Virus record (IMG/VR): IMGVR_UViG_3300046011_001650
Location: 1-20,286 of that record
Direction: 5' to 3' (one strand)
DNA length: 20,286 nt
From: a virus
Shown: piece after piece, positions 2,775 through 19,545 of the stretch
Layout: each line of letters begins with the position of its first letter
How positions within the stretch are numbered: the first letter of the stretch is position 1
Notes under the pieces: generated by a model
Database searches by the model: none
What the model was told of the DNA's origin: nothing
The model's input: only the letters and a program-made list of their open reading frames with translations
Position numbers and translations under genes: made by a program

Positions 2775-2942
2775 CTACTCCTTGATTCTGTTAGCTTCCT
2801 TACTTCTCCGAATGGTCTCTTCACTAAAGAAATCTGGGTGGTAGTTTCCATCCTTATCCAGAATCTTTGCCTTATAGAGCAACTCCATCCTCTGCTCCTT
2901 AGTTAGGAATTCGTATATCTTAATTCCATCAATATTTATCAT
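2775..2942 (-). CDS. hypothetical 55-aa protein
   Basis: A short basic/acidic helical protein (MINIDGIKIY start, RSKEANRIKE end) of unknown role. The start at 2940-2942 was preferred over an upstream in-frame ATG at 3002 because it forms a 4-bp ATGA overlap with the stop of the preceding GIY-YIG gene, the same coupling seen repeatedly in this operon. The longer version would overlap that gene by more than 60 bp. The DGNYHPDFFSEETIRRS stretch suggests a turn followed by a helix; no known motif is recognised. Confidence 0.65.
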   Translation of the reverse strand: MINIDGIKIYEFLTKEQRMELLYKAKILDKDGNYHPDFFSEETIRRSKEANRIKE

Positions 2943-3370
2943 TTGAATAATGTCCGTACATGATTTCTGTGTATTTTTCCACCAACAAAGGCATTGTACC
3001 ATTTGTCTGGTTGAATTAGTACTTCATTAATAATCTGTTCTTTCATTTCAAGATAGGAGCATTCACCTTTGGTTTGGCAGAAGTGAATAATTTCACGAGT
3101 GAATTTATCTTCTCCTAGTGCTTTAACGTCGTTCTGGAGTTCTAAGGAAGATGACCAATAAGTTCTCCAATCGGAGTCAACTTTAGTTTTGATACGTTTC
3201 TTCTTTTTCTCACCAGACTTTAGAGTGACTGTCTTGATGGAAGTTTTAGCAAACTTTGCTAGCTTCTTTCCAATATACTGGCGACCATCTACCAGATTAG
3301 TGATTAGGTAAACAAATCCTTCACAATCTGGTAGCTCGGTCACTGGATTACCATTATAGGTCCAACTCAT
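2939..3370 (-). CDS. small GIY-YIG-fold nuclease-like protein
   Basis: Contains the GIY-YIG nuclease signature in variant form: FVYLI at residues 19-23 and QYIGKK at 31-36, then DWRTYWSSS (67-75) and a conserved Glu in YLEMKEQI (106-113) at the position of the metal-binding glutamate, followed by YNAF and Asn/His residues near the end. At 143 aa it is a bare catalytic domain with a lysine-rich insertion (residues 50-63) and no separate DNA-binding region, unlike the two large GIY-YIG homing enzymes in this window. It is embedded in the operon by ATGA overlaps on both sides, so it looks like a settled operon member rather than a recent invader. It could be a free-standing endonuclease, a domesticated homing nuclease or a repair nuclease. 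Confidence 0.75.
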   Translation of the reverse strand: MSWTYNGNPVTELPDCEGFVYLITNLVDGRQYIGKKLAKFAKTSIKTVTLKSGEKKKKRIKTKVDSDWRTYWSSSLELQNDVKALGEDKFTREIIHFCQTKGECSYLEMKEQIINEVLIQPDKWYNAFVGGKIHRNHVRTLFK

Positions 3371-3520: not shown

Positions 3521-3946
3521 CTACTTCCCTGTTATACTACACCAAGACTCTTTCTTTTCTCCAAAGTAAGGTCGAGCATAGCCTTGTTTAATTAATTCTT
3601 CAGATAGCAATTTGCCATCCAATATTACGTCACCTAATACTCGTCCACCAAATTTATCCCATTCTTTAATAGAGACTTGATGAACTTTAGAACTAGCAAC
3701 CAATCGTTTTGTGAATTCTGTAGCTGAATTACCTTTACTAGCTTCAATAGTACAATGAGCTCTGAATCCTTTCTCAGGAGTATCAACACCTAATACCCGA
3801 AGCGATAATACAGGTTTCAGTGGTTTGGGTAAGAATTCTGCTTTGAATTCTACAGTATCCCCATCAATGACTCTAGTGATGGGGAAGTTATAAACCTCGG
3901 CCGAAACCGAGGAGCTTAACAGTAATAATAAAAATAATTTCTTCAT
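3521..3946 (-). CDS. Exported thermonuclease (staphylococcal nuclease family)
   Basis: A Ca-dependent endo/exonuclease of the SNase fold with a Sec signal peptide. Residues 1-16 (MKK, leucine run, SVSA) form a signal sequence with a likely cleavage before EVYN. The catalytic set is in place: VIDGDT (27-32, calcium Asp), R50 in RVLGVDTPE with D55 and E58 (counterparts of SNase R35, D40, E43), and R102 in KFGGR (R87 counterpart). The ATG at 3944-3946 was chosen because it overlaps the preceding TGA (ATGA) and begins a proper signal peptide; an upstream TTG is possible. Export to the periplasm is unusual for a gene inside a nucleotide-synthesis operon. It could degrade DNA in the periplasm for nucleotide salvage or block superinfecting DNA; both are inference. 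Confidence 0.88.
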   Translation of the reverse strand: MKKLFLLLLLSSSVSAEVYNFPITRVIDGDTVEFKAEFLPKPLKPVLSLRVLGVDTPEKGFRAHCTIEASKGNSATEFTKRLVASSKVHQVSIKEWDKFGGRVLGDVILDGKLLSEELIKQGYARPYFGEKKESWCSITGK

Positions 3947-4182
3947 AAAGTTTTCCAACCAGTTTCAGTTCGAACCTTAACAGGATCTTCCGTCTCGATC
4001 CAAACCTTAGCACCACAGGATAATGGATCATCTGGCTTATATATCACCTTCCCATTTACAAAATCAACTTCATGGCCATACAAGTTCTCCTTGTATGTCT
4101 TACACGTGATAACAGGATTACGTTCTCCTGATTTAGCATTAGCTTTAATCACGTGTTGGTTAATGTGAATGATTCGTTTCAT
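3943..4182 (-). CDS. conserved phage protein of unknown function, 79 aa
   Basis: It begins MKRIIHINQHVIKANAK and ends with LSCGAKVWIET followed by a short basic tail. I recognise this as a type of small protein common in phages and some bacterial mobile DNA, but no function is known to me. It is beta-rich by appearance, with two cysteines and no membrane segment. The start is three bases past the nrdA C-part stop and the stop overlaps the nuclease start. Its position immediately after the ribonucleotide reductase gene suggests co-expression with nucleotide metabolism. Confidence 0.75.
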   Translation of the reverse strand: MKRIIHINQHVIKANAKSGERNPVITCKTYKENLYGHEVDFVNGKVIYKPDDPLSCGAKVWIETEDPVKVRTETGWKTL

Positions 4183-4185
4183 AAA

Positions 4186-5181
4186 TCAACCATGGCACGA
4201 AATGCACTCGGATTTATTAGTTTGCACTCCACTTTCTGATCGAATATAGTACAGACTTTTAATGTATGGGTCCAAAAATGCCATCTTATGAACTGAACTA
4301 ATATACTCTTCAGTCTCTTCAGAACTAAAGAACAGATTGATACTTTGAGCTTGATCAATATACTTCTGACGTACTGAAGCCAATCTAATGATCTGAGTTT
4401 GGTCAATTTCAAAAGCAGTCTTGAACACTAACTTCTCTTCGTCAGTAAGCCAATCAACGTGCTGTACTGAACCTTTATGATTGATAATGTCCTTCACTAC
4501 TTCTTCAGAATAAACGTCCTTCTCTTTCATTAGTTTGAGTAAGGTAGGATTCACTCGATCAATCTTTCCAGCTGCAGTATTCTGTACGAAGGCGTTTTTG
4601 TATATTGGTTCAATGCCTTGGCTAACGGAACCACATATCAGAGCAGAACTCAGGTTAGGAGCAATAGCAATTCTGTGAGTATTTCTTACACCATATCCTT
4701 TACACCATTCTGGTTCTCCAAATGCTGAAGCCATCCATTGAGAAGCTCTTAACGATTCATCATGAAGATGTTTGAAGATTTCTGTATTCTTCAGATTAGC
4801 TTCGAATGATTCAAATGCAATATTGTGTTCTTGGAGATATGTGTGGAATCCTAACAATCCTAATCCTAGAGCTCGGCTTTTAGTAGCAAATCGTACTACC
4901 TTTTCCATCCCAGTAATTTTACTACCAATATTGATTAGGTCTTGATTCACACAATCAAGAAATACTGTTGCATCAAATACCGCAGTAGTATCTTTCCACT
5001 CATCATAGAGAGAAGCATTCATTGATGATAATACGCAACTAAAGGTATGGTCGTCATCAGAGAACAATTGTATTTCTGAACAATTGTGTACCAATATGTC
5101 ATTGGCAAAAAAATTATGATTATCTTCTACCGATATGTCATAAACGTCTTCTTCATAATCTAAATATTCAATTGCTATCAT
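4186..5181 (-). CDS. nrdA: NrdA C-terminal part with C-intein: IntC-NrdA(C)
   Basis: The second half of the class I ribonucleotide reductase large subunit, made as a separate protein. Residues 1-33 are an intein C-terminus (VYDISVEDNHNFF, then ANDILVHN) ending in the His-Asn pair used for Asn cyclisation. Cys34 is the +1 extein residue and also begins CSEI, the counterpart of E. coli C439/E441, so the splice nucleophile is the thiyl-radical cysteine itself. The next cysteine (FSCVLSS) matches C462, LYYIRSESG carries the Tyr pair of the radical path (Y730/Y731), and SECISCHG gives the C-terminal CxxC reductant. The ATG at 5179-5181 has its own AAGAGG site. The protein can only complete NrdA by trans-splicing with the product of 6161-7300. 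Confidence 0.93.
   Translation of the reverse strand: MIAIEYLDYEEDVYDISVEDNHNFFANDILVHNCSEIQLFSDDDHTFSCVLSSMNASLYDEWKDTTAVFDATVFLDCVNQDLINIGSKITGMEKVVRFATKSRALGLGLLGFHTYLQEHNIAFESFEANLKNTEIFKHLHDESLRASQWMASAFGEPEWCKGYGVRNTHRIAIAPNLSSALICGSVSQGIEPIYKNAFVQNTAAGKIDRVNPTLLKLMKEKDVYSEEVVKDIINHKGSVQHVDWLTDEEKLVFKTAFEIDQTQIIRLASVRQKYIDQAQSINLFFSSEETEEYISSVHKMAFLDPYIKSLYYIRSESGVQTNKSECISCHG
5083..5181 (-). other. C-intein half (IntC, 33 aa) of a split NrdA intein
   Basis: It starts with MIAIEYLDYEEDVYDI and ends with FFANDILVHN followed by Cys. This matches intein blocks F and G (final His32-Asn33). The size of about 33-40 residues is usual for natural IntC fragments. The last block closely resembles the ending of known phage/metagenomic NrdJ-type split inteins. 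Confidence 0.92.
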
Positions 5182-5190
5182 GTTATCCTC

Positions 5191-6105
5191 TTAAATATAA
5201 TCTATAGGGTTTAAATCTTTACACCACTTTTGATGTATCTCACGCTTGTATCCAGTTCGTTCTTCTACTATCGGAAATAGATCCTTTCCATAATTGAATC
5301 TATACTTGGACAAAGATTTTGGAAATTGTAAACCAGTTTTCAACATATACACCTTTCTGAAAAATGCCAGTGATGGAATATTCTGCAACTTGTTGCTGAG
5401 TAGTATAAATTCTTGTAAAAACTCTTCGTTTGTTATACCACTAAACCTGCTATTATTTTCGCCATCCGTATTACTAGTAGCGCCACTCCAATCTTCAGTC
5501 AACCTTTCATCATTTATTGAACAATATATACGTTCACCTGTCACCTTATTATAATATGTATGATTTCCTTTAGAATGATGAACCCATTCACCTGATAATA
5601 TTTTTGGATGATTTTTATCAAAAGATCCCATTATATCTCCAGTAATTACACATTTAACTGGAAATGTGTCTTTCCTTGATTCAGAAATCCTTCTTATACC
5701 ATCTTCAGTTTGCCATCCATGATTGTGTCGAAAATCTGAACTATTTTGTTTCATCCAGGCATAAGATGATCTTACCTTATTAGATATTATGGTAGGAATG
5801 CTTCCGTACCTTGGGTTAGTTTTGATGCCGTTTATAATACATCTAACTGCAACAAAATCGCCCCTATCACCATAGGCTTTATATCTCAATCTATGAGCAA
5901 ACAAATGTTCTTCAGGCAATAATACTACTAAATTAGTGTCTATATCAGTTCCACCAACCGATCTCGGAATTATATGATGAACCTCTGTATATAATGAATC
6001 GTATTGTAATCTAAAGTCATGTTGATTGCGTTCTAACATCCTTTTTCTAGGATCAGTATTCTGGCAATGTGAAACAAATTCGTCGTATAATTTTTTATAA
6101 TTCAT
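5191..6105 (-). CDS. Free-standing HNH homing endonuclease inside split nrdA
   Basis: A 304-aa protein with the HNH core at residues 41-71: EVHHIIPRSVGG with H43/H44, N58 in TNLVVL, H67 and H71 in EEHLFAH. This is the phage-type HNH layout that binds one metal and makes a nick or double-strand break. The remaining ~230 residues lack a textbook DNA-binding motif but include repeats rich in Trp/His (SGEWVHHSKGNHTYYN) of the kind found in modular homing enzymes, and probably provide specificity. The gene lies exactly between the two split-intein nrdA genes and ends 9 bases before the IntC start. It has the late promoter TATAAATA 23 bases upstream and an AAAGGAG site buried in an inverted repeat. 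The likely target is intein-less nrdA of a co-infecting phage (inference). Confidence 0.88.
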   Translation of the reverse strand: MNYKKLYDEFVSHCQNTDPRKRMLERNQHDFRLQYDSLYTEVHHIIPRSVGGTDIDTNLVVLLPEEHLFAHRLRYKAYGDRGDFVAVRCIINGIKTNPRYGSIPTIISNKVRSSYAWMKQNSSDFRHNHGWQTEDGIRRISESRKDTFPVKCVITGDIMGSFDKNHPKILSGEWVHHSKGNHTYYNKVTGERIYCSINDERLTEDWSGATSNTDGENNSRFSGITNEEFLQEFILLSNKLQNIPSLAFFRKVYMLKTGLQFPKSLSKYRFNYGKDLFPIVEERTGYKREIHQKWCKDLNPIDYI

Positions 6106-6106
6106 A

Positions 6107-6148
6107 AAATCTCCTTTAATGATATAGTATTTATAATAAAGGAGATTT
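6107..6148 (-). promoter_or_regulatory. Late promoter inside an SD-sequestering inverted repeat
   Basis: AAATCTCCTTTA (6107-6118) and TAAAGGAGATTT (6137-6148) are perfect 12-bp inverted copies separated by 18 bases. On the minus strand the loop contains TATAAATA (6128-6135), the T4 late-promoter octamer. RNA read through from the upstream nrdA part would pair the Shine-Dalgarno AAAGGAG with the upstream arm. RNA started at the late promoter would lack that arm and leave the site free. This is the arrangement known for several T4 late genes and for I-TevI. Confidence 0.87.
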
Positions 6149-6160
6149 CACTACACAGAA

Positions 6161-7300
6161 CTATTTCAATAGCAGAATATCGTTTTCTTGAAGTTGGCTT
6201 GCTTCGACGTATCCTCTATTCTCAGTGAATACCTTATGACATGGAGTACATTTTATAAACTTGCCAGTCCGTTTATCTGTAATTTTCATGAGTTTTGCAT
6301 TACGTCTCATCTGAGCGGACTTGGTAATTTTCTTCCACTCACCCACACCACTTTCTACATTATACGACCAAACCTTCCAATTTTCAACATCATCATTTTT
6401 ACCTAGGTAATTATTCAAACCTTCCATAGATACTTCAATCTCACCACTCATATCACCTTTGATATTGATTCTAGTGTCGCCCGATAAACACAAGTTAGAT
6501 GCCTTTACTGTAAGGCCCAAGTCTTTGTACATTTGAGGATTTTGGCGATTTACTTTATCGATGAACTCAAAGTATCCTTTACCAGTAATCATTTTAAGTT
6601 TCAATGCTTTCTGATATCGTTCAATTGCGTCAGGATCTCCTGCTTCTAATCTAGCAATGAACGCGTCAGTAACATTCCAACCAATATTAGCATCATCAGG
6701 TTGTTTGTTAATATAGTTAACTAATTCAAAGAAATCTGGGTGGTCAATTTCAATATAGCCAGCCCATGCTCCTCTACGTTGTGAACCTTGGCTAACGTCT
6801 CTCGACATTTGAACGTAATCTTTGAATACAGGAAGTACTCCAGAAGCACTACCTTTAATGCCCGAGATTTTAGAACCTCTAGGTCTAATACCTCCCAAGT
6901 AACTAGAAGTACCAAATCCATTCTTTGAAAGAATAGCAGCTTCTGTTTGTGAGTTATAGAATGAGAAAATAGAATCTCCTACTACTCCTCCTGAACAAGA
7001 AACAGGACAACCAAATCCAGTACCCATATTAGACAATACAGGAGTCGAAGCTGCTAACCAACCGTTCCATAATAGATTGAAGAATTTAGTTTCCCATTCA
7101 GCAGGATTACTTGTATACGAAGCAGCATGACTAGCCACTCTTGTATATACGGATTTCAAGTCTGGATGAGATGGAGTCAAGTAGCTACCTTTAAGCATCT
7201 GCCATGCAGCAGTAGTACACCAGTTAGGTAATAATCCTTGTTCTTGAAGGAGTTTACGTTCTTCACCTAATTCTTCATAAATTGATAATTCATTCACCAT
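6161..7300 (-). CDS. nrdA: NrdA N-terminal part with N-intein: NrdA(N)-IntN
   Basis: Encodes 379 aa: a 270-residue N-extein of ribonucleotide reductase alpha followed by a 109-residue N-intein. The extein shows the first redox cysteine in CPVSCSGGVVGDS (C225 counterpart), the GSQRRGAWAGYIEIDHPDF core and ends ASNL, equivalent to the E. coli Asn437 loop just before the active-site cysteine. Little precedes the barrel, so the N-terminal ATP-cone is absent. The ATG at 7298-7300 is preceded by TTGAGGAA; an earlier TTG in frame is less likely. The gene ends in LLLK-TAG directly after the intein block B region, as expected for a natural split site. Spliced with the 4186-5181 product it would give about 568 residues of alpha subunit, working with NrdB to make dNTP precursors. 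Confidence 0.93.
   Translation of the reverse strand: MVNELSIYEELGEERKLLQEQGLLPNWCTTAAWQMLKGSYLTPSHPDLKSVYTRVASHAASYTSNPAEWETKFFNLLWNGWLAASTPVLSNMGTGFGCPVSCSGGVVGDSIFSFYNSQTEAAILSKNGFGTSSYLGGIRPRGSKISGIKGSASGVLPVFKDYVQMSRDVSQGSQRRGAWAGYIEIDHPDFFELVNYINKQPDDANIGWNVTDAFIARLEAGDPDAIERYQKALKLKMITGKGYFEFIDKVNRQNPQMYKDLGLTVKASNLCLSGDTRINIKGDMSGEIEVSMEGLNNYLGKNDDVENWKVWSYNVESGVGEWKKITKSAQMRRNAKLMKITDKRTGKFIKCTPCHKVFTENRGYVEASQLQENDILLLK
6164..6490 (-). other. N-intein half (IntN, 109 aa) of a split NrdA intein
   Basis: It begins Cys-Leu-Ser-Gly-Asp (block A, Cys1 at 6488-6490) and carries KCTPCHKVFT (block B TxxH) about 80 residues in. It ends NRGYVEASQLQENDILLLK at the stop codon. The length and end point match natural split inteins, which break after block B where an endonuclease domain would otherwise sit. 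Confidence 0.93.
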
Positions 7301-7326
7301 GTAAAATTTCCTCAAGTTTTAATTTA

Positions 7327-7334: not shown

Positions 7335-7357
7335 CGTTATATGTAAAGCAAAAAGGT

Positions 7358-7418
7358 GTTAGTCACGGATTGCACTCCTACTAACTCTAAACATTCTATC
7401 AATAATCAGGAGACTATT
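7358..7418 (+). promoter_or_regulatory. Conserved structured leader of GIY-YIG gene 1
   Basis: GTTAGT (7358-7363) pairs with ACTAAC (7380-7385). The loop contains CTCCT (7375-7379), complementary to the Shine-Dalgarno AGGAG (7408-7412). A matching leader precedes the second GIY-YIG gene (12135-12200), with the fifth stem pair changed from G-C to C-G. It may fold as a hairpin or pseudoknot that limits translation. Confidence 0.55.
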
Positions 7419-8258
7419 ATGTCCAGCACAACTATATATACACCATTCACTTATTGTATCACATTTCTCCCAACAGGGCAACGATACTATGGTGTTCGAT
7501 ATGCAAAAGGTTGTCATCCTTCTCAACTTTGGACGACCTACTTCACTTCATCAAAAATAATATCCAATCTTATAGAAGAATATAGCAAAGATTCATTCAC
7601 CTTTGAAGTTCGAAAAACATTTATCAATAAAGATTCTGCTCTATATTGGGAAACAAAATTCCTTACAAAAATAAATGCAGCAAACCATCCAGAATGGCTC
7701 AATGGTCATAATGGCGATCTAAAGTGGAATAATGTTGGTGGATATAAACTCACCGAAAAAACAGTATCCAATATGAGAAAACCAAAATCAGAATCTCATA
7801 AACTAAATATGAGAACACCAAAATCTAAAGAACGGAAACTTTCAGAAAGAACCAAATGTTTTGAGAAAACAGGATATTACTCTAATTTTGAAAATCCAGA
7901 TATTATTCAAAAATGCAAAGATTCGTATTTTCAAAATACTGGATATACTCATAATTCAAAAAATCCAGAAACTATTCAAAAGAGATCAGATAGTTATTTT
8001 GAAAAAACGGGATATGCTAACCCCTCAAAAAATCCAGAAGTGTTAGCACACCAATATGATTCGTATTTTCAAAATACTGGATATACTCACCCAAGCCTCA
8101 ATCCAGAAGTTCAAGAAAGAAAAATCCAAACCTATAAAGACACATGCTCTAAAAGACCTCCTATAAAATGCCCCTATTGCGATGTTTCTGGCAAAGGAGG
8201 CATAATGGGTAGATGGCACTTTGATAATTGTAAATTTAAACCCTTACCAACTGAATGA
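7419..8258 (+). CDS. GIY-YIG homing endonuclease 1 (between nrdB and nrdA)
   Basis: A 279-aa enzyme and the only clear plus-strand gene. The GIY-YIG domain is N-terminal: YTPFTYCITF and QRYYGVRYA, Arg in FEVRKTF, and the metal-binding Glu in YWETKFLTK. Basic linkers (MRKPKSES, MRTPKSKE) follow, then four 23-aa repeats of the SYFxxTGYxxxxxNPE type (nucleotides 7851-8126), and a C-terminal zinc finger with CPYC and HFDNC. Catalytic domain, spaced DNA-reading repeats and finger together are the standard modular plan of phage homing enzymes. The ATG at 7419 follows CAGGAG; a GTG 21 codons upstream is in frame but lies in the conserved leader. The 3' end overlaps the last codons of nrdB by 15 bp, tail to tail. 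It is probably expressed late and homes into nrdB-nrdA spacers of related phages. Confidence 0.9.
   Translation: MSSTTIYTPFTYCITFLPTGQRYYGVRYAKGCHPSQLWTTYFTSSKIISNLIEEYSKDSFTFEVRKTFINKDSALYWETKFLTKINAANHPEWLNGHNGDLKWNNVGGYKLTEKTVSNMRKPKSESHKLNMRTPKSKERKLSERTKCFEKTGYYSNFENPDIIQKCKDSYFQNTGYTHNSKNPETIQKRSDSYFEKTGYANPSKNPEVLAHQYDSYFQNTGYTHPSLNPEVQERKIQTYKDTCSKRPPIKCPYCDVSGKGGIMGRWHFDNCKFKPLPTE
7851..8126 (+). repeat. Four tandem 69-bp coding repeats
   Basis: Units start at 7851, 7920, 7989 and 8058, each 69 bp (23 aa). The shared protein pattern is (S/C)(Y/F)F-x2-TGY followed by NP(E/D) about five residues later. Units 2 and 4 are closest (DSYFQNTGYTH in both). A fifth, degenerate unit may begin at 8127. 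They probably form repeated DNA-contacting modules. Confidence 0.85.
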
Positions 8259-11438: not shown

Positions 11439-12134
11439 CTATTCCTCTATACATTGATTGATATGCAAATCGTAATAATATTTATATTTATATTTCTTAT
11501 TACAAATTGGACAAAATAAATATGGTTTATTTTTCTTAGTTTCTTTTATTTTTTCAATAACCCAGTCTATTTGACTTGGGTTCGTCACACCATACTTTTC
11601 GTGTATAGTTTTTTTTCCATTAGAAATTCTTAATGACGTATGCTCTTCAGATTGCTTTCCGTATACAAAACCAGACATTCCTTTATTCCAAGGGACTCTA
11701 CCTTGAGCCGCTAATGATATATTTTTACGATGATTGTCTGATTTTACTTTACCGCTTAATGCAATTGATATATTTTCATTCCACTCATCATCGTGAACAC
11801 GACCTATATTTTTAAACTTAGTTCCACCATTATGCTTATTTATCCACATATCATTAGCGGCAGCATCAAATTTAGTCAGTATTTTAGTTTCCCACGCTAG
11901 TGTTTGCTCTACAGTAGTAAAGACTTTTCTTATTTGATAATCAAAAGAATCGATACCGTATTCACTTATTAATTTGTGTATTTCTTTGGATGATGTGAAA
12001 TACGTATTCCACAGTTGAGATGGATTTGCTATTTTATTTGTACTATTTGCATAACTGGATCCATAATACAATTGTCCTGTTACTTTGAATTTTAAAATAT
12101 ATGTATACGGTATATAAATACTTTTGCTGATCAT
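11439..12134 (-). CDS. GIY-YIG homing endonuclease 2
   Basis: A 231-aa enzyme related to the endonuclease at 7419-8258. The catalytic domain shows YIPYTYILKF, QLYYGSSYA, Arg in YQIRKVF and Glu in AWETKILTK. DNA-binding modules follow: NUMOD3-like stretches around SGKVKSDNHRKNISLAAQG, the HEKYGVTNPSQ motif, and a C-terminal zinc finger (CPIC, then H and C in HINQC). The start at 12132-12134 follows AAGGAG, mirrors the N-terminus of the other enzyme, and leaves the conserved leader untranslated. An ATG at 12209 would add 25 residues. The gene sits in the spacer between two conserved phage genes and was probably inserted by homing; the last codons contain the SD of the next gene. Confidence 0.88.
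   Translation of the reverse strand: MISKSIYIPYTYILKFKVTGQLYYGSSYANSTNKIANPSQLWNTYFTSSKEIHKLISEYGIDSFDYQIRKVFTTVEQTLAWETKILTKFDAAANDMWINKHNGGTKFKNIGRVHDDEWNENISIALSGKVKSDNHRKNISLAAQGRVPWNKGMSGFVYGKQSEEHTSLRISNGKKTIHEKYGVTNPSQIDWVIEKIKETKKNKPYLFCPICNKKYKYKYYYDLHINQCIEE
11479..11492 (-). promoter_or_regulatory. Overlapping tandem late-promoter octamers
   Basis: On the minus strand TATAAATA occurs twice, at 11485-11492 and 11479-11486, sharing two bases. They lie inside the 3' end of the GIY-YIG gene, about 42 bases before the start of the 169-aa gene. Spacing to the downstream start fits late-gene transcription. Confidence 0.6.
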
Positions 12135-12200
12135 TAGATTACTCCTTGTATTTTTGTTAGTATGGTTAGAGTTACTGGGATGTAGGAGTCCGCGAGTAAC
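12135..12200 (-). promoter_or_regulatory. Conserved structured leader of GIY-YIG gene 2
   Basis: In the minus strand GTTACT (12195-12200) pairs with AGTAAC (12171-12176). The loop contains CTCCT (12184-12188), complementary to AAGGAGT (12141-12147) in front of the start. Much of the rest (TAACTCTAA-CAT-CTA-CAA) matches the leader of GIY-YIG gene 1. Confidence 0.55.
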
Positions 12201-12241
12201 TTTTTTCATTTATTAAATTTCCTTGTTGGAGTTCTTCTTTA

Positions 12242-12590: not shown

Positions 12591-13184
12591 TTATGCTACA
12601 GTAAGTTTGACTGCAGGTGATGTTTCACTCACAGCATTAGTAGCTGAAACGATAACACGATATTTGAATCCGTTTAAATTGGTAGGAGTCGATACGTTAC
12701 TGATTGCTAATGTAGCTGTAGTAGCACCGGTGTAAACACCAGTATTAGTTATGTCAACATATACATTGCCATTAGTAGTAGTTGATCTTTGCCACTGATA
12801 AGACAATGCACCACCGCCAGAACTGATTGCAGCAACAACTGCAAATGTAGTAGCAGCACCAGAAGCTACAGAACGTGCAACTGGTTTAGTTGTTAAAGTA
12901 ATATCATAAGTTCCCGCAGTGTCGATACCAGCATCATTAGCACGGTCGCCAGCGGCAACTGCAGTAACAGACATTGGAATTAAGCATTCTGCTTTGTGAC
13001 GGATTGCTCCAGCCGCATTTTTATACTGTTCATATAACCACCAGCCTGGACCAGTAATGCCTTTTGCTTTTGTATCTGCATCAGCGGCTTCAGTATTATC
13101 AATGAAGATTGCTTTTGCACGTTGTTCTTCGTTTAAATATTTTGGGACACTGGCATCAGTATCCGTTTTTCCCCATAAACTCAT
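12591..13184 (-). CDS. Virion structural protein with C-terminal Ig-like domain
   Basis: A 197-aa protein starting MSLWGKTDT, an opening common to virion proteins of cyanophage-type T4 relatives. The N-terminal half has AKAIFIDNTEAA, GPGWWLYEQY and RHKAECLIPM. From about residue 103 there is a bacterial Ig-like fold: YQWQRST, TGVYTGATTATLAISNVS and FKYRVIVSATNAV, with the usual Trp and Tyr core positions. Ig domains on phage particles commonly make weak contacts with cell surfaces or mucus. The ATG follows AAGGAG and an AATAAATA late-promoter-like octamer 28 bases upstream. Which virion part it belongs to is not shown by the sequence. Confidence 0.8.
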   Translation of the reverse strand: MSLWGKTDTDASVPKYLNEEQRAKAIFIDNTEAADADTKAKGITGPGWWLYEQYKNAAGAIRHKAECLIPMSVTAVAAGDRANDAGIDTAGTYDITLTTKPVARSVASGAATTFAVVAAISSGGGALSYQWQRSTTTNGNVYVDITNTGVYTGATTATLAISNVSTPTNLNGFKYRVIVSATNAVSETSPAVKLTVA

Positions 13185-13211
13185 TGTTATCTCCTTATTA
13201 GTTTGTAAATA

Positions 13212-13219
13212 TATTTATT
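13212..13219 (-). promoter_or_regulatory. probable late promoter for the Ig-domain gene
   Basis: AATAAATA on the minus strand (7 of 8 to TATAAATA), in a short AT-rich spacer 28 bases before the start codon. It is a one-base variant, so support is positional. Confidence 0.45.
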
Positions 13220-14603
13220 AGTAAATTTCTCGCCATTGGATACCACACCAAACATTTGCTGCCGCTCCTATAGATTGAGCACATACTACATAGATTTCAC
13301 TATCTGTACAATCAAAATTTTGTGTTATAAAATTTCTTTTTGCTGCAGTCGGATTACTTTCAGATCCAGTACCAGTACCTTTAGCACTACCACCAGGGCT
13401 TGAAGTACCAACAAATCCATTATCTACAACATCACCACCAGATATTGCTGTTCCTAATATAGTATATTCAACTGCACTTTCTGACGAAACGCTTGTCCAA
13501 GTAGGACTACTTAAAGTTATTGATGATAGACCTGAGAGTTTTATTAGTTTCCAATATACTGGATTCTGTTCAGCATAAACATTAACATTTCCCATTCTTA
13601 ACATTACACGATTAGGATAACCTTTAAATGTTGATTTTAATCTTATTGCTACGATTGGATAATTTGCGCCTAATGGAACATTCTGAGATGCAGTGCCTGA
13701 ATCGATTGCCCAATCTATACCTGATTCTGCATATCCACCTTCAGAAACAACAGTTGAACAAATTTGGTCAAAAGAACCACCAGTAGTTGTACCTGTATTT
13801 CTTATTTCACATCTAACTGGTAAATTTGGATTACTCATATAGACTACAGGTAAGTAATTACTGTTGTAAAATTCATGTGCAACAATCATATTACCGTTAT
13901 GAACAAAACCGCATCTTACTCTACCAACACCTAGCCACTGAAAATCAATGAAAAATATTTGTGTCTTAGTAATATCGAGAGTCCACGATCCAGATACTCC
14001 GCTGTTAGTACCATCTGTAGAAGTGCCAACAATTGTCGTATTACAAGTATCAACATTCCATTGAGCTTGAGTAACTCTTCTAGCATCGCTAGGAGTTCCG
14101 GTAGTGTCTGTTCTTATAACAAAACTTAAAGTACCGTCGCCAGCTTGTTCAAAATAGATTCCATTTCTGTCGTCAAAATAACCAGTCCGTTTAACTACAT
14201 TAGCAATAGGACTATAGAAGTTAATTGTTGACTTTATTAGTTGACTTTTACCTGGCATGTAGTTGTGATACTGTTTTGTCTGGTGTATAGCATAACTTGA
14301 ACTATTTGATGTTGTCGTTAACCTTGCAGATGCTTGATTTGCATTATGAGTAATCGTTCCACCATTAGATACGATATTCAGAAAGTTTTGATCTATACCA
14401 TAAGTATGTTTATAATCACCTAAAGTAAATGCTTCAGATATTCTTAATCTACCAAAAGCATCAGAACCTCCTGTAACAGCACTCATAGAAACAGGAAATC
14501 TATTGGTATCAGATACTACAGATCCATCATTATACACTTCAGTTGATATAGGATTTCCAACATCATTTTTAATTTCTTGATTGTTTGTAAAAAGGTAACT
14601 CAC
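13218..14603 (-). CDS. Virion structural protein (T4-like cyanophage type), 461 aa
   Basis: A large beta-rich protein with the characteristic stretch DAFGRLRISEAFTLGDYK at residues 48-65, found in structural proteins of T4-like cyanophages and relatives. The body is Thr/Ser/Asn/Gly-rich, with lectin-like strands (IYFEQAGDGTLSFVIR, IFFIDFQWLGVGRVRCGF) and a Gly/Ser-rich loop near residues 400-420. No enzymatic motif is visible. It starts with GTG at 14601-14603, overlapping the previous stop as GTGA with GGAG just upstream. The family points to the virion surface, perhaps fibre or head decoration; the exact location is unknown. Confidence 0.82.
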   Translation of the reverse strand: MSYLFTNNQEIKNDVGNPISTEVYNDGSVVSDTNRFPVSMSAVTGGSDAFGRLRISEAFTLGDYKHTYGIDQNFLNIVSNGGTITHNANQASARLTTTSNSSSYAIHQTKQYHNYMPGKSQLIKSTINFYSPIANVVKRTGYFDDRNGIYFEQAGDGTLSFVIRTDTTGTPSDARRVTQAQWNVDTCNTTIVGTSTDGTNSGVSGSWTLDITKTQIFFIDFQWLGVGRVRCGFVHNGNMIVAHEFYNSNYLPVVYMSNPNLPVRCEIRNTGTTTGGSFDQICSTVVSEGGYAESGIDWAIDSGTASQNVPLGANYPIVAIRLKSTFKGYPNRVMLRMGNVNVYAEQNPVYWKLIKLSGLSSITLSSPTWTSVSSESAVEYTILGTAISGGDVVDNGFVGTSSPGGSAKGTGTGSESNPTAAKRNFITQNFDCTDSEIYVVCAQSIGAAANVWCGIQWREIY

Positions 14604-15340
14604 ACTATTCTCCAGCCATTTCTATAAAGTAATTGAATTGCACCATTGTCTAATTGAATAATGAAACCAGTAGGATCATTATCAACAGTTCCTAAAACAG
14701 TTATTGGATTAACTGAAGCATTACCAGATTCATCTTTGATTATCAACATCCGACCAGAACTTGGATTGCTAGGTAAAGTAATAGTAGTTGGTCCGTTATA
14801 TGTAACACCAACATAGTAATCATCAGATGAGACTGTATATGTAGAAGTCGTTACATTGTTGGTAGTATAAACTATATCATGTGGATTGACTTCAGCAAAC
14901 TCAAATTTCTTTAAGGTTGCATTGTATCTCAGATATCTACCATCATAGATTGAACTTCTTACTATATCATCAAGATAACGAAGATTCACTTCACCACTAC
15001 CAGGACCAGCAAGAGAAATCTTACCCATCCATTGCTCTATAAACTTTAACTTATCTCTAATATGTCTAACGTCATTATCAACAGGACTGACTTCTGGTTG
15101 TTGATAAGATTGTTCGTTGAATAATTTAGTTAGTTCCGGCGTTAAAACAGATTCTGGTGATTCCTCCATAATAGGTTCTGGTTCAATGTAAACTTCTTCA
15201 AGTGCTTGTACCTTGAATGGATTTGATTCCTTTACCCGTTCTGATATTTCAATCAATCTATTTTCTTTTTCAGATTGTTCTTGTATCTTTGCCAATTTAG
15301 CATCAGATATCAATTTTAGGAAATCACCAAATTCTGCCAT
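14600..15340 (-). CDS. Virion structural protein, 246 aa
   Basis: The N-terminal ~90 residues are helical and charged with acidic proline-rich spacers (EEVYIEPEPIMEES). They lead to HIRDKLKFIEQWMGKIS, then GPGSGEVNLRYLDDI (110-124), a motif I associate with structural proteins of cyanophage-like myoviruses. The C-terminal ~100 residues are beta-rich (TTITLPSNPSSGRMLIIKD), typical of a fibre or spike tip domain. It is coupled to the downstream 461-aa gene by a GTGA overlap, so the two probably act in the same particle substructure. The ATG at 15338-15340 follows AAAGGG. Confidence 0.78.
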   Translation of the reverse strand: MAEFGDFLKLISDAKLAKIQEQSEKENRLIEISERVKESNPFKVQALEEVYIEPEPIMEESPESVLTPELTKLFNEQSYQQPEVSPVDNDVRHIRDKLKFIEQWMGKISLAGPGSGEVNLRYLDDIVRSSIYDGRYLRYNATLKKFEFAEVNPHDIVYTTNNVTTSTYTVSSDDYYVGVTYNGPTTITLPSNPSSGRMLIIKDESGNASVNPITVLGTVDNDPTGFIIQLDNGAIQLLYRNGWRIV

Positions 15341-15344
15341 TTGA

Positions 15345-15527
15345 TTACCCTTTGTTTAAATGTTTGAAGTATCCAATACGCTTTTCTTGCTTATTGAACC
15401 ATTCTTCGGAAGGTTTCCCCTCACCTTTATAATAGGCGAGAGGTTTACCAGATTTCTTAGAAACAATTGCCCACTTGCCGTCTACTTGTTTCAATACTTC
15501 TTCAAGATATTCTTTGAAGGTAATCAT
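15345..15527 (-). CDS. conserved small phage protein, 60 aa
   Basis: The first 11 residues (MITFKEYLEEV) resemble the short amphipathic head-targeting leader of T4 internal proteins. The rest, GKWAIVSKKSGKPLAYYKGEGKPSEEWFNKQEKR, written here only in part, is a small basic module (WAIVSKK, KPLAYY, PSEEWFNK) that recurs alone or as a domain in T4-like phage proteins. Strongly basic overall, which would suit DNA contact inside the capsid. It starts one base after the stop of the EF-hand protein gene. The role is inferred only from composition and neighbours. Confidence 0.7.
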   Translation of the reverse strand: MITFKEYLEEVLKQVDGKWAIVSKKSGKPLAYYKGEGKPSEEWFNKQEKRIGYFKHLNKG

Positions 15528-15528
15528 T

Positions 15529-16329
15529 TTAGTCTTCAGCTTCGTTATACTGAGTTGGTTTTAAGTGACCAGCAACTTTAGCAATATGAGCCGATTGAGT
15601 TCCTTGATCTACTAAGGCACCATTTACTTCATTCCATGATGTATGAGTTTTATTACCAGGTTTCAATTTTGCTAAGAAATTAACTGCACCTTTTTGTCCT
15701 AATACTTTACTCACAGCATCAGTTGCACGACTAACTGGAATATTAGTACCTTCATCAAGGTTTTCTTTAACATCGCCTTTGACTTCAGATACTTTGTATT
15801 TAATACCGTAGTATGATTTTTCGCCAGGAGATAATCCTTTATTCAATCTTTTAGCGTGTTCTTTAGCATCTTCTTTAGTTTCATGAGTTTTAACATGAAC
15901 AGGACCACCGCTACCAATAGAACCACCATGTCTATGGACTGCAAACGCTTCCATTATTTCGTATTCATCGAGTTGCTCTAATGATTCTTTAAACTCTTTA
16001 AAGTTTTTCATTCCTTTCTTTTTACGAAGTAATGCAAAATCATGAGCATCTACTTTACCATTATCATTAGCATCCAATTTCTTATGATTAGGATGAGCAA
16101 ATTTTTCGTCCATTACATCTTCTTGAACTTTAATACCGCGTTTCTTGAGTTCCGCTGCAACTCTTTGTCTTTGGTCATAACTACGAGTACCTTTAGGTTC
16201 TTTTGCATGTAATGCGTGAAGACTTGTCAAGGTATCAGTCTTGACATTACTTAGATCATGAGTTGATTCATTCATAGCAATATAAGTTTCTTGGATCGAT
16301 TGTAACGCTTCTAGTTGTTCTACTAACAT
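15529..16329 (-). CDS. Probable internal virion protein with EF-hand
   Basis: The 266-aa product has a canonical EF-hand loop at residues 86-97: D86, N88, N90, G91, V93, D94, D97 (LDANDNGKVDAHDF). It also carries SYDQRQRVAAELKKRG upstream of it and an internal MKNFKEFKESLEQLDE that resembles a capsid-targeting leader. The second half is His/Lys/Gly-rich with no known motif. This combination is seen in unassigned virion-region proteins of T4-like phages. The ATG follows AAGGAG. Calcium binding is well supported by the loop; scaffold or internal-head function is inferred from the neighbourhood. Confidence 0.75.
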   Translation of the reverse strand: MLVEQLEALQSIQETYIAMNESTHDLSNVKTDTLTSLHALHAKEPKGTRSYDQRQRVAAELKKRGIKVQEDVMDEKFAHPNHKKLDANDNGKVDAHDFALLRKKKGMKNFKEFKESLEQLDEYEIMEAFAVHRHGGSIGSGGPVHVKTHETKEDAKEHAKRLNKGLSPGEKSYYGIKYKVSEVKGDVKENLDEGTNIPVSRATDAVSKVLGQKGAVNFLAKLKPGNKTHTSWNEVNGALVDQGTQSAHIAKVAGHLKPTQYNEAED

Positions 16330-16339
16330 TTAGTTCTCC

Positions 16340-16777
16340 TTACTTTAAAATTGATTTCAACATCCACTGATGCTTTTTGTGTGCTGTTAAACGGTCTGCC
16401 AAGAAATTAGCATAACCTTGTTCATTTACTTCCTGTGATGCTTCAAATGCAGATTCCAACGATTCAATCATCAATACATTAGCTTCGTATAGATTAGTTA
16501 ACATAGTATTGACATTATCTGGTTTAACCATATCTTCATTGATTGTTTTATATCTAGTCAATTCAGTCAAACTAATAGGAGCATATACATCAAAAGTTCT
16601 AATGAATTCGGCTAGTGTATCTACTGCACCATAAGTATCTGCGTAAAAATCACCAAAGAAATCATGGAATTGTGGAAAATAGAATGATTCTACGTTCCAA
16701 TGGTATGAAGCACTTTTGAAGTATAGTACAAAGTTGTTAGCAAATACTATTCTCGAGGTTGCGATTAATTTATCCAT
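16340..16777 (-). CDS. Dps-like ferritin
   Basis: A 145-aa four-helix protein of the Dps family, which forms 12-mers that oxidise and store iron and often bind DNA. SYHWNVESF gives H26, FHDFF gives H38 twelve residues later, and VDTLAEF gives D53 and E57. These match E. coli Dps H51, H63, D78 and E82 in spacing. The remaining ligand position (D67) is Gly42, with Asp43 next to it. The C-terminal helix ADRLTAHKKHQWMLKS also fits. There is no Lys-rich N-terminal tail. It lies among late virion genes with 2-10 bp gaps, so it is probably made late and may travel in the capsid or protect DNA from Fenton damage (inference). Confidence 0.83.
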   Translation of the reverse strand: MDKLIATSRIVFANNFVLYFKSASYHWNVESFYFPQFHDFFGDFYADTYGAVDTLAEFIRTFDVYAPISLTELTRYKTINEDMVKPDNVNTMLTNLYEANVLMIESLESAFEASQEVNEQGYANFLADRLTAHKKHQWMLKSILK

Positions 16778-16779
16778 GT

Positions 16780-18468
16780 TTAGTCTCTGTTGATTGGATG
16801 AAGACGAGCATTTTCAATTTTTCTAATTTTAGGCACTAACTTCATTGCTGCTTTATCGATTAGTTTCTTTTTCTTAGCTACGATTCTTTCAATCCGTTCT
16901 TTTTCTTGGACGGTCAATTGACTCAAAGGTTTCTTTGCAAGTTTTGCTTTAAGTGCATTGATTGCGGCATTACGCGCTCGATGATTAATCTTCTGTGGAC
17001 TAGAACGAGTATGTAAAGCAATCTTCATTTTGCGTATACGTTTGCCTTGCGATTGCTTGAATCTGATAGCAGCTTTGATGCGTTCCATTCTTGATAATAC
17101 TTCAGTAAGATATGATTCGTTCATTCCATCAAGGTCTTTAACGTGAGTAACATGGTTTCCTTCATCATCAACAACATGAAGTTCATCGTCATCATAGGTG
17201 CTTAAAATATCTTCATCAGACACTTTATCAACCATGTCATCCAATTCATCATCTGACATATCATCTTCAGAATCTTCCTCATGTAATTTGTATTTGACTT
17301 TCATTCTACGTAAAGAATCGTTATCTCCATTTGGTTCTATAGTACTTCCTACTCTACCATGACCTTTACTTTCATCATCTAAATCACTTTGAGTATTTTT
17401 CAAATCATCAGAATCTTTATCTTCTGGACCACCATTATCATCTTCATCGCCATCGTTTGGATGAACTTGGTCTGGATTAATAACTCTTTTTACTTTGGGC
17501 GAACTTACTAATTTAGATGAATCTTCCTTTACTAATGCTGGCATAAGTTTTTTGTCATACATGATTCCTGCTTCAGTAGCAGTACTAAGCATATTTTTAA
17601 GAATCTTTAATGAATCTGATTTGAGTGGATTCTTTGAGAGAGTTTTGAGTGCCTTATTGATAAGTTCTTCTGGCGATGAAGAATCAGAATCAACACCAAG
17701 AGTACCAGCAACAATCTTGGCAATTTTTAGTTTGTCTGAACTTGAGTATGTCATTTCTTGTATTTTTCCTGCTGAATAAGAATCTTGGCTTCCATAATCG
17801 GATACTGCTAATTCCATTTTGTGATATGAATTCATTAAGTAATCTTCGTGATGAAGATACACGCCCAATCTTTTAAGAATATCAACGGCTACTTGCTGAG
17901 CTCTTTGGAATGCATGAAAGTCGTCTATAGACAATGAACCTGATACGATACTTTTTTGAATACCGAATGCCTGATCAGTTGCTTTGATAGCATTTAGGAG
18001 TGCTACGGGATCAATATTTGGTAATTGAGTTAGTTTGGTGTATTCGAAGATTGCTTCTTTACTTATATCAAAATTCTTGGTAGTGAATCCTTTATAAGTT
18101 ACTTGATTAGTAGTAACATTGCCAAAATCTTCTTTCAATGATTGTTTGGTTTGGTTGTCTACTACATTAACTTCCACAAGCCACTTGCGTTGAATATTGC
18201 CATCAGAATCTGTTACTGTGAGATAGTTGCTACCTCTACTGAGTATTTCTAGGTAAGTATTATTGGATTCGACTATGTCACCAACATTGAAAATCTCACC
18301 ACGAAAGTATTGTTCACGGATACTATCAAGCTCAGTGGTTTTATCAAATTCTATGTTTGGATCGGTATGCTTTGAGAATGGAGAGTTATCCAAAGACTCT
18401 ATAAGATCAACTTTACTAAAATCAATTTTACTAGTCTTTGGATTGAATAGCGATTGGTATGTTTTCAT
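16780..18468 (-). CDS. Large internal-head or scaffold-like protein, 562 aa
   Basis: Starts MKTYQSLFNPK, close to the MKTYQEFIAE leader that sends T4 internal proteins into the prohead. Domains in order: a beta-rich segment (residues ~50-110); a helical segment (~130-300); a long acidic, low-complexity linker (~330-430, e.g. DGDEDDNGG and DDMSDDELDDMVD); NESYLTEVLSRMER, another leader-like motif; and a very basic C-terminus (~460-562, KRIRKMKIALHTR, KKKKLIDKAAMKLVP, KIRKIENAR), which I recognise as a conserved tail in T4-like phage proteins. The acidic/basic split resembles core or DNA-packing proteins. A CATAAATA octamer sits 32 bases upstream of the ATG. No enzyme motif was seen. Confidence 0.75.
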   Translation of the reverse strand: MKTYQSLFNPKTSKIDFSKVDLIESLDNSPFSKHTDPNIEFDKTTELDSIREQYFRGEIFNVGDIVESNNTYLEILSRGSNYLTVTDSDGNIQRKWLVEVNVVDNQTKQSLKEDFGNVTTNQVTYKGFTTKNFDISKEAIFEYTKLTQLPNIDPVALLNAIKATDQAFGIQKSIVSGSLSIDDFHAFQRAQQVAVDILKRLGVYLHHEDYLMNSYHKMELAVSDYGSQDSYSAGKIQEMTYSSSDKLKIAKIVAGTLGVDSDSSSPEELINKALKTLSKNPLKSDSLKILKNMLSTATEAGIMYDKKLMPALVKEDSSKLVSSPKVKRVINPDQVHPNDGDEDDNGGPEDKDSDDLKNTQSDLDDESKGHGRVGSTIEPNGDNDSLRRMKVKYKLHEEDSEDDMSDDELDDMVDKVSDEDILSTYDDDELHVVDDEGNHVTHVKDLDGMNESYLTEVLSRMERIKAAIRFKQSQGKRIRKMKIALHTRSSPQKINHRARNAAINALKAKLAKKPLSQLTVQEKERIERIVAKKKKLIDKAAMKLVPKIRKIENARLHPINRD

Positions 18469-18486: not shown

Positions 18487-18507
18487 TAGTACATTGTACT
18501 ATTTATG
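18487..18507 (-). promoter_or_regulatory. probable late promoter with dyad, for the 562-aa gene
   Basis: CATAAATA on the minus strand at 18500-18507 (7 of 8 to the T4 late octamer), next to the dyad TAGTAC-ATT-GTACTA at 18487-18501, in a 44-bp spacer. The dyad covers the predicted start site. Confidence 0.45.
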
Positions 18508-18512
18508 AATTT

Positions 18513-19115
18513 TTAGAACCCAGAATACTCCTTGAAGGACATGAGACTTTCTTTAATATTCATACCTTTACAGGCAAGATCCCATACTTGTTTAGCATCT
18601 GCATCGGATGCTTCTTTTGGAAGAGAATGACGGAATGATTCAAAATCTCCATCAGTAACATATTTTCTCATTGCTGTTCCAGACATAGCAGCATCCTCTC
18701 CATCTTCATCGGGATCTCTACCACCTCTACTAAGTACACCTACTTTACTGAATTTGAAGTAATCACGGCTATTAGCAAAATCAACAAATGATTTCTGGTA
18801 ATCAGCAAATCTGTCTTCTCCACATACTAGATAAACTTCATCATACCCATGTTCATTAGCATAATGAAGAATGTTGCCTGGTTGCTTAACTTTATTTTCA
18901 GCATCTACCTTAACCACACCTTTGGTCCATTTGGACATCATTTTAGCTTTATCGAGGTAAGGTAATGGATTCTTTTTGTTTTCTGAGTGAGACAAGAATA
19001 TGGCAGGATCACCATTATGTTTCTTTGCCAGTTGTTCTACTTTATCTACCAACAACATATGTCCACGATGGAATATATTGAATCGTCCAAACGCCGCTAC
19101 TAATACTTTTTTCAT
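18513..19115 (-). CDS. HxGH nucleotidyltransferase (cytidylyltransferase-like)
   Basis: A 200-aa member of the nucleotidyltransferase superfamily. FGRFNIFHRGH at residues 9-19 gives the HxGH pair (H16, H19) that activates the NTP phosphates, and MSGTAMR at 144-150 is the (I/M)SxTxxR motif closing the site. YLVCGEDRFADY is the usual substrate-side strand. Family members transfer AMP or CMP to NMN, pantetheine phosphate, glycerol phosphate and similar; the substrate here cannot be told. The C-terminal NIKESLMSFKEYSGF is an appended leader-like tail not needed for catalysis. It is packed between virion-type genes with one-base gaps. NAD salvage is one attractive role. Confidence 0.85.
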   Translation of the reverse strand: MKKVLVAAFGRFNIFHRGHMLLVDKVEQLAKKHNGDPAIFLSHSENKKNPLPYLDKAKMMSKWTKGVVKVDAENKVKQPGNILHYANEHGYDEVYLVCGEDRFADYQKSFVDFANSRDYFKFSKVGVLSRGGRDPDEDGEDAAMSGTAMRKYVTDGDFESFRHSLPKEASDADAKQVWDLACKGMNIKESLMSFKEYSGF

Positions 19116-19116
19116 T

Positions 19117-19545
19117 TTAACAGTTCCATTTTTTGAGTGCTAATGCTTTTCGAGTAGGTTCACCATTAGGTTTCTTCATAGGACCTTCAACTCCACTCAT
19201 CCGAGCACAAAATGATTTTCTACGATTAGCAGCTTTACTACCTGGTTTTAACTTAGAAGGAGGAGTAGTAACAGCTGTTTTCAAATTCCCACCAGTTCTT
19301 CTATTATAGGCATCAACTCCTTTCTGAGTCATTCCTCCAGTAGAACTCTTATGACCTTTAGCATCAATAGCATACTCTAAAAGTTCTTCATCGGAGAACT
19401 CCTCCAAATTTTCCCAAAATATTTCAGAATCGATACCATGCCTTAATGATAGTTCTTCAATAACTTCTTCTATCAAATCAAATTGTTCTTCTAAACTTGT
19501 TTCCTGTAGATTATGTTCTGCTATAAACTGATTATATGTTTTCAT
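19117..19545 (-). CDS. Probable internal head protein with T4-like targeting leader
   Basis: Begins MKTYNQFIAE, matching MKTYQEFIAE of T4 internal protein III at eight of ten positions. In T4 this leader directs proteins into the prohead and is clipped after a (L/I)xE site by the gp21 protease. Residues ~15-62 are strongly acidic and helical (LEEQFDLIEEVIEEL, NLEEFSDEELLEY). The C-terminal ~80 residues form a basic, conserved module (GGMTQKGVDAYNRRTGGN, RRKSFCARMSG, RKALALKKWNC) that I recognise as DUF6321-like. After clipping, a basic DNA-binding product inside the head is plausible. The ATG overlaps the stop of the upstream ligase-superfamily gene as ATGA. Confidence 0.8.
   Translation of the reverse strand: MKTYNQFIAEHNLQETSLEEQFDLIEEVIEELSLRHGIDSEIFWENLEEFSDEELLEYAIDAKGHKSSTGGMTQKGVDAYNRRTGGNLKTAVTTPPSKLKPGSKAANRRKSFCARMSGVEGPMKKPNGEPTRKALALKKWNC

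Follow-up and report, generated by a model that had tools for sequence, protein, structure and literature searches.

The window analysed here is the whole 20,286-nucleotide stretch of the IMG/VR virus record IMGVR_UViG_3300046011_001650, which belongs to a T4-like phage from an aquatic setting. At positions 16340–16777 of the minus strand it carries an ATG-started open reading frame (ORF; 16777 to 16340) that encodes a protein of 145 amino acids. This protein is a true Dps/miniferritin homologue: it matches Pfam Ferritin PF00210 (8.4e-20) and phrog_3636 (‘DNA binding protein’; 8e-24), and its best phmmer match among solved Dps proteins is Pseudomonas aeruginosa PA0962 (7e-16). Dps-type miniferritins are iron-oxidizing cage proteins that defend bacteria against oxidative damage. 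Comparison with two relatives at 94% identity gave a dN/dS of around 0.08 (NG86), indicative of strong purifying selection. The protein is acidic (pI 4.96, net charge of about −8; median pI of its viral relatives, 5.1) and has no lysine-rich tail at either the N or the C terminus.

An AlphaFold2 model of the monomer, based on an alignment of 60 relatives, has a mean pLDDT of 98 and a pTM of 0.91. Helices at residues 2–28, 34–61, 89–116 and 120–144 form a predicted four-helix bundle, and a further helix at residues 70–76 corresponds to the short helix between B and C that is the hallmark of Dps (PMC11150526). When the PDB was searched with Foldseek and VIA-align, the top matches were all Dps chains, aligned over the full length, the best being Thermosynechococcus elongatus Dps (Z 22.9, rmsd 1.1 Å). 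Family membership suggests that the protein would assemble as a 12-mer.

The ferroxidase positions H51, H63, D67, D78 and E82 of Escherichia coli Dps correspond, without a gap and at a constant offset of 25, to H26, H38, G42, D53 and E57 of the window protein. The inter-subunit ligands are therefore present by sequence position as H26 (codon at 16700–16702, minus strand, as for the others; site A), H38 (16664–16666; site B), D53 (16619–16621; site A) and E57 (16607–16609; bridging). All four are kept in 85/85 viral relatives from a sequence search; H38, D53 and E57 were not part of the patterns used for it. At position 67 the site B carboxylate is lost, codon 42 (16652–16654) being GGT for Gly, followed by Asp43. 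We did not count D/E67 as defining Dps because accepted members of the family are without it. An earlier note on this DNA had proposed a Dps with four of the five ligands at the family’s spacing and a Gly with an adjacent Asp at the D67 position, to be checked by a structure search; the homology searches, fold matches and gapless alignment bear out all of these points.

Gly predominates at position 42 in the 85 viral relatives (62 sequences); the others have Q, A, L, E, S or N, and none has Asp. Because these loci had been ordered by how closely they resemble the window protein, we repeated the count with a DNA motif in which the four ligands were fixed and position 42 was left free, scanning both viral DNA and Pseudomonadota. 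The 119 viral Dps found by this motif have G (58), E (19), D (12), Q (11) and S (8), more rarely A (5), L (3), N (2) and K (1), so that 31/119 are acidic (Asp/Glu); the share is 27/102 after reduction to 80% identity. In 299 genomes of Pseudomonadota, the same motif found E (48), D (11), M (13) and Q (7) at this position, that is, an acidic residue in 59/79, Met or Gln in 20/79 and Gly in 0/79. The viral and bacterial acidic shares differ with a Fisher p of 1e-10, in a comparison that covers one phylum and ignores kinship. At least 24 switches between acidic and non-acidic residues were counted on the tree described below. Judged from these alignments, position 67 is a soft ligand of Dps generally, and its loss is far advanced in viruses.

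The D67 carboxylate of canonical Dps contacts site B via a water molecule (PMC6675082). In Dps4 of Nostoc punctiforme, neither Asn67 nor the adjacent Asp68 is a metal ligand, yet two irons are bound and Fe(II) is oxidized by O2 (PMC6675082); Gly42 therefore does not imply inactivity. Nostoc Dps4 compensates with His78 and His164 (PMC6675082), and the window protein is without these residues. Our best guess, by analogy, is that the window Dps has a working A site and a weakened B site. Asp43 is probably not a replacement ligand, as this position varies across the 85 relatives (N 32, D 30, E 10, K 9) and its counterpart in Nostoc Dps4, Asp68, is not a metal ligand (PMC6675082).

Other accounts of the centre were also set aside. 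Gly42 is found in both 94%-identical relatives (GGT in 3/3 genes) and in most of the clade, which argues against a lone mutation or sequencing error. A His-type centre, with His at positions 78 and 164, does not fit the Asp53 and Met139 found there. A DpsL- or bacterioferritin-type centre was rejected because the window sequence has no ExxH motif, the residues three before H26, H38, H133 and H136 being A23, P35, L130 and H133; DpsL PA4880 has two such motifs and the intra-subunit ligands E47, E80, H83, E130, E162 and H165 (PMC11150526). H136 of ‘AHKKHQWM’ was considered as a phage-specific ligand and is present in 79/85 relatives, but we make no such claim, as this motif was part of the search pattern and other Dps have related His residues.

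All genes around Dps described here are on the minus strand. Upstream are a DUF6321 protein starting MKTYNQFIAEH (19117–19545), a cytidyltransferase-like protein (18513–19115) of a kind that is a recurrent neighbour of viral Dps, and a 562-amino-acid protein (16780–18468) that ends 2 nucleotides before the Dps start. The last has weak phrog_395/23027 domains, which are common to cytidyltransferase-type neighbours at other Dps loci. Directly downstream is a 266-amino-acid protein with a dockerin/EF-hand-like motif (LDANDNGKVDAHDF; 15529–16329), at a position where relatives carry ‘KHKIDKNKNGKIDAHDF’ proteins. It is followed by a 60-amino-acid protein starting MITFKEYLEE (15345–15527), a tail-fibre-like protein identified by PHROG match (14600–15340), a virion structural protein (phrog_1645, 9e-104; 13218–14603) and a head protein (phrog_613; 12591–13184). 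A possible T4-like late promoter, CATAAATA at 18507–18500, lies just before the 562-amino-acid gene; TATAAATA-like sites number 54 in the window against 67 expected, and CATAAATA therefore carries no weight.

Elsewhere in the window, the large subunit of ribonucleotide reductase is divided between two minus-strand ORFs (4186–7315). An N-terminal intein half (SNLCLSGDTRI...) closes the ORF at 6161–7315 and a C-terminal half (...NHNFFANDILVHN-C) opens that at 4186–5181. Between the two ORFs lies a free-standing gene for an HNH homing endonuclease (5191–6105), and the whole is a natural split-intein arrangement. There are three SegE/GIY-YIG homing endonuclease-like genes (2939–3370, 7356–8258 and 11439–12209), of which that at 7356–8258 is on the opposite (plus) strand and has C-terminal repeats of ‘SYFQNTGYTHPSxNPEV’ (DUF7487). 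A minus-strand gene at 3521–3958 encodes a homologue of Staphylococcal nuclease that appears to have a signal peptide and may be an exported phage nuclease.

Relatives of the window Dps were found in at least 591 viral stretches. We built a tree of 165 sequences from which the trait column (position 42) had been removed; it has few columns, many unresolved forks and a narrow bacterial sample. In this tree, 134 viral sequences and one contig of a metagenome-assembled genome (MAG) are split from alphaproteobacterial Dps with an SH-aLRT of 96, and on this phylogenetic evidence the viral Dps are a separate, strongly conserved clade. The MAG contig (L088; CAIOZF010000052.1, 7 kb, uncultured Gammaproteobacteria), whose Dps falls inside the viral clade, is probably phage DNA that was binned with a bacterium. 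Among 50,697 records of cultured phages, none encodes a protein above around 33% identity to this head-cluster clade.

The gene order is conserved across most T4-like relatives: Dps, one large protein, and then phrog_613, phrog_407 and phrog_18642-type genes, with phrog_613 placed 1–4 genes after Dps. Several of the T4-like contigs that share this synteny span 155–168 kb. In another group (L049), Dps lies exactly between the small and large terminase genes, after neck and tail-sheath-stabilizer genes. When the genes directly beside stand-alone viral Dps were compared with PHROGs, the matches among 138 genes included cytidyltransferase (10), large terminase (9), small terminase (7) and portal (6), and those among 137 distant genes at the same loci were chiefly DNA polymerase and primase. 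Some phages encode a ‘NLENRQKAIDEYGYGPLNP...’ domain in its own gene immediately preceding Dps, and others have it inside Dps-bearing ORFs (L042:7573-8001, L008:7573-8001, L168 and L171).

Genes near Dps also tend to have N termini that resemble those of T4 internal head proteins. The capsid-targeting signal of T4 is formed by the first ten residues, of which 4 and 7 serve targeting and 8 and 10 serve cleavage (PMC9026906). We scored same-strand genes with a pattern built on these four residues, and found it in 54/306 genes at positions −6 to +2 from Dps versus 10/370 genes further away (odds ratio 7.7, p 2e-11); 28/46 loci have at least one such gene near Dps. In the window the pattern is fitted by MKTYNQFIAE (from 19545), which matches the N terminus of a T4 internal protein (MKTYQEFIAEA), and by MITFKEYLEE (from 15527). 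Neither the window Dps nor the other stand-alone Dps that were scanned gave a match to the capsid-targeting pattern. Cytidyltransferase-like domains also adjoin Dps in many relatives (for example, L018:3368-6361 and L012:6165-7994), and their long forms start with MKNYRQLIKELPSK, which fits the pattern; such a nucleotidyltransferase may be carried as head cargo.

In other phages Dps is joined to head maturation proteases. Around 18 of the 119 motif-found viral Dps lie within ORFs of more than 230 amino acids, and, of 10 such ORFs examined, 9 have matches to head maturation protease or portal-protease families in addition to Dps (best Peptidase_S78 match, 4e-44). The domain order varies, with Dps before the protease in some ORFs and after it in others. 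Searching viral proteins by fold gave independent hits to UniProt entries named ‘Prohead protease’ that contain a Dps domain. We found no description of a Dps–protease fusion in the open-access literature searched. Two polyproteins (L173:1-1905 and L227:306-2567) have additional phrog_2859 and HAD phosphatase-like domains, the latter matching Acid_phosphat_B and a polynucleotide kinase PHROG. The window Dps is a separate ORF of 145 amino acids and not a fusion; the fusions nevertheless argue for a benefit of Dps at the site of head assembly. The earlier note had also placed the gene among virion genes and beside internal-head genes. The former agrees with the head and virion PHROGs at 12591–14603, and the latter is supported both in the window and in the whole clade by synteny and capsid-targeted neighbours, and is strengthened because the fusions occur elsewhere.

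We consider the chances about even that the product of the window gene is a Dps miniferritin adapted by phages for work at the head. Twelve subunits would form a cage late in infection, and the cage would be enclosed in, or associated with, the prohead. Its high-affinity A site (H26, D53 and E57) would oxidize Fe(II) with O2 or H2O2, and Fe(III) held in the cage would keep Fenton chemistry away from dense DNA, in the virion or at the site of packaging. In phages with fusions, the Dps domain would reach the prohead as part of the maturation protease, which could then release it by cleavage. For Dps of the T4-like clade, which have no signal of their own, entry would require binding to a partner, and the simplest idea is that an adjacent capsid-targeted protein has this role. 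A Dps 12-mer is too large to pass the portal intact; delivery to the host would therefore require disassembly. Chance insertion of a cargo gene can also account for placement in the head region, which counts against a role in the head. More generally, and with a little less assurance than an even chance would imply, we propose that many aquatic tailed phages have made Dps part of the virion. The cage, with only the A site left of its ferroxidase centre, would enter the prohead either fused to the maturation protease or together with the capsid-targeted cluster, and would shield packaged DNA from iron and peroxide between hosts or carry iron along with the particle.

The most serious alternative, to which we give a real but minority chance, is a cytoplasmic auxiliary: a normal Dps that clears Fe(II) and H2O2 and protects host and replicating phage DNA until lysis, with its location among head genes reflecting late transcription only. 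Such a role has been proposed for Dps of Lactobacillus phages (PMC6669764) and gut Gratiaviridae (PMC8008677), and it agrees with the lack of a capsid-targeting signal in the window Dps. Dps is also annotated in Grimontviridae, Streptomyces phage Comrade and Synechococcus phage S-SRM01. In Grimontviridae it adjoins genes for anaerobic ribonucleotide reductase, deaminase and primase, and in Proteus phage Privateer, Aeromonas phage BUCT695 and Comrade its neighbours are ribonucleotide reductase, deaminase, primase or thymidylate synthase genes. Placement in the replication and nucleotide regions of other cultured phage families suits an ordinary cytoplasmic role; those Dps belong to different, five-ligand lineages, and Privateer, BUCT695 and Comrade keep Asp67. 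A cytoplasmic role leaves unexplained, however, both the repeated fusions to head maturation proteases and the constant head-region position in the clade of the window Dps.

We think it improbable that the cage or domain is a retired Dps, kept as a prohead scaffold, core or spacer after its iron chemistry was lost. The loss of the site B carboxylate in most viral Dps and the fusions to scaffold and protease polyproteins would fit this idea, but a purely structural part should lose its ligands, whereas H26, H38, D53 and E57 are kept throughout the relatives, and Nostoc Dps4 is active without the D67 ligand (PMC6675082). Condensation of phage or host DNA, which the earlier note had entertained and which the family name and PHROG label would suggest, is very improbable because the protein has no basic tail and a pI of around 5, with a charge and relatives to match.

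Phage Dps have so far been read as helpers against stress in the host (PMC6669764, PMC8008677). A phage-only clade in head-gene clusters, together with the protease fusions, suggests that in some phages the particle itself is armed against iron and peroxide. If so, a single protein would offer a test both of how free virions survive in sunlit water and of the debated idea that phages carry iron. Viral Dps also provide a natural series of ferroxidase centres that are one ligand short, and a wider theme of miniferritins tied to phage head assembly is a lead to follow.

The window Dps resembles canonical bacterial Dps (P. aeruginosa PA0962 (8ff9), T. elongatus Dps (2c41), HP-NAP and Listeria Dps) in its full-length fold (Z 21–23, rmsd 1.1–1.5 Å), its BC helix and the identical spacing of four of the five ferroxidase ligands, and it shares its tail-less length with HP-NAP and Listeria Dps; it differs in having Gly for D/E67, in belonging to a separate viral clade and in its place in a phage head-gene cluster. 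The His-type proteins, N. punctiforme Dps4 and T. elongatus DpsA, likewise have no carboxylate at this position (Asn67-Asp68, compared with Gly42-Asp43), but have His78 and His164 where the window Dps has Asp53 and Met139 (PMC6675082). Dps were already known from phages, including Lactobacillus plantarum myoviruses (PMC6669764) and gut Gratiaviridae (PMC8008677); none of those previously known exceeds around 33% identity to the head-cluster clade, and the Dps of Comrade and Grimontviridae have Asp67 and lie in replication and nucleotide regions, whereas the window Dps has Gly and is linked to head genes. The internal head proteins of T4 (IPI–IPIII) are an analogous class of head cargo and share the capsid-targeting pattern with genes that neighbour the window Dps, which itself has no targeting sequence and an unrelated fold. 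The Dps–prohead-protease proteins of uncultured Caudovirales that the fold search identified (for example, UniProt A0A6J7XDU5 and A0A6J7WPK9) have 32–34% identity to the window Dps and TM-scores of 0.94–0.97; in these, Dps is covalently joined to the head maturation protease, whereas in the window it is encoded by a gene of its own.
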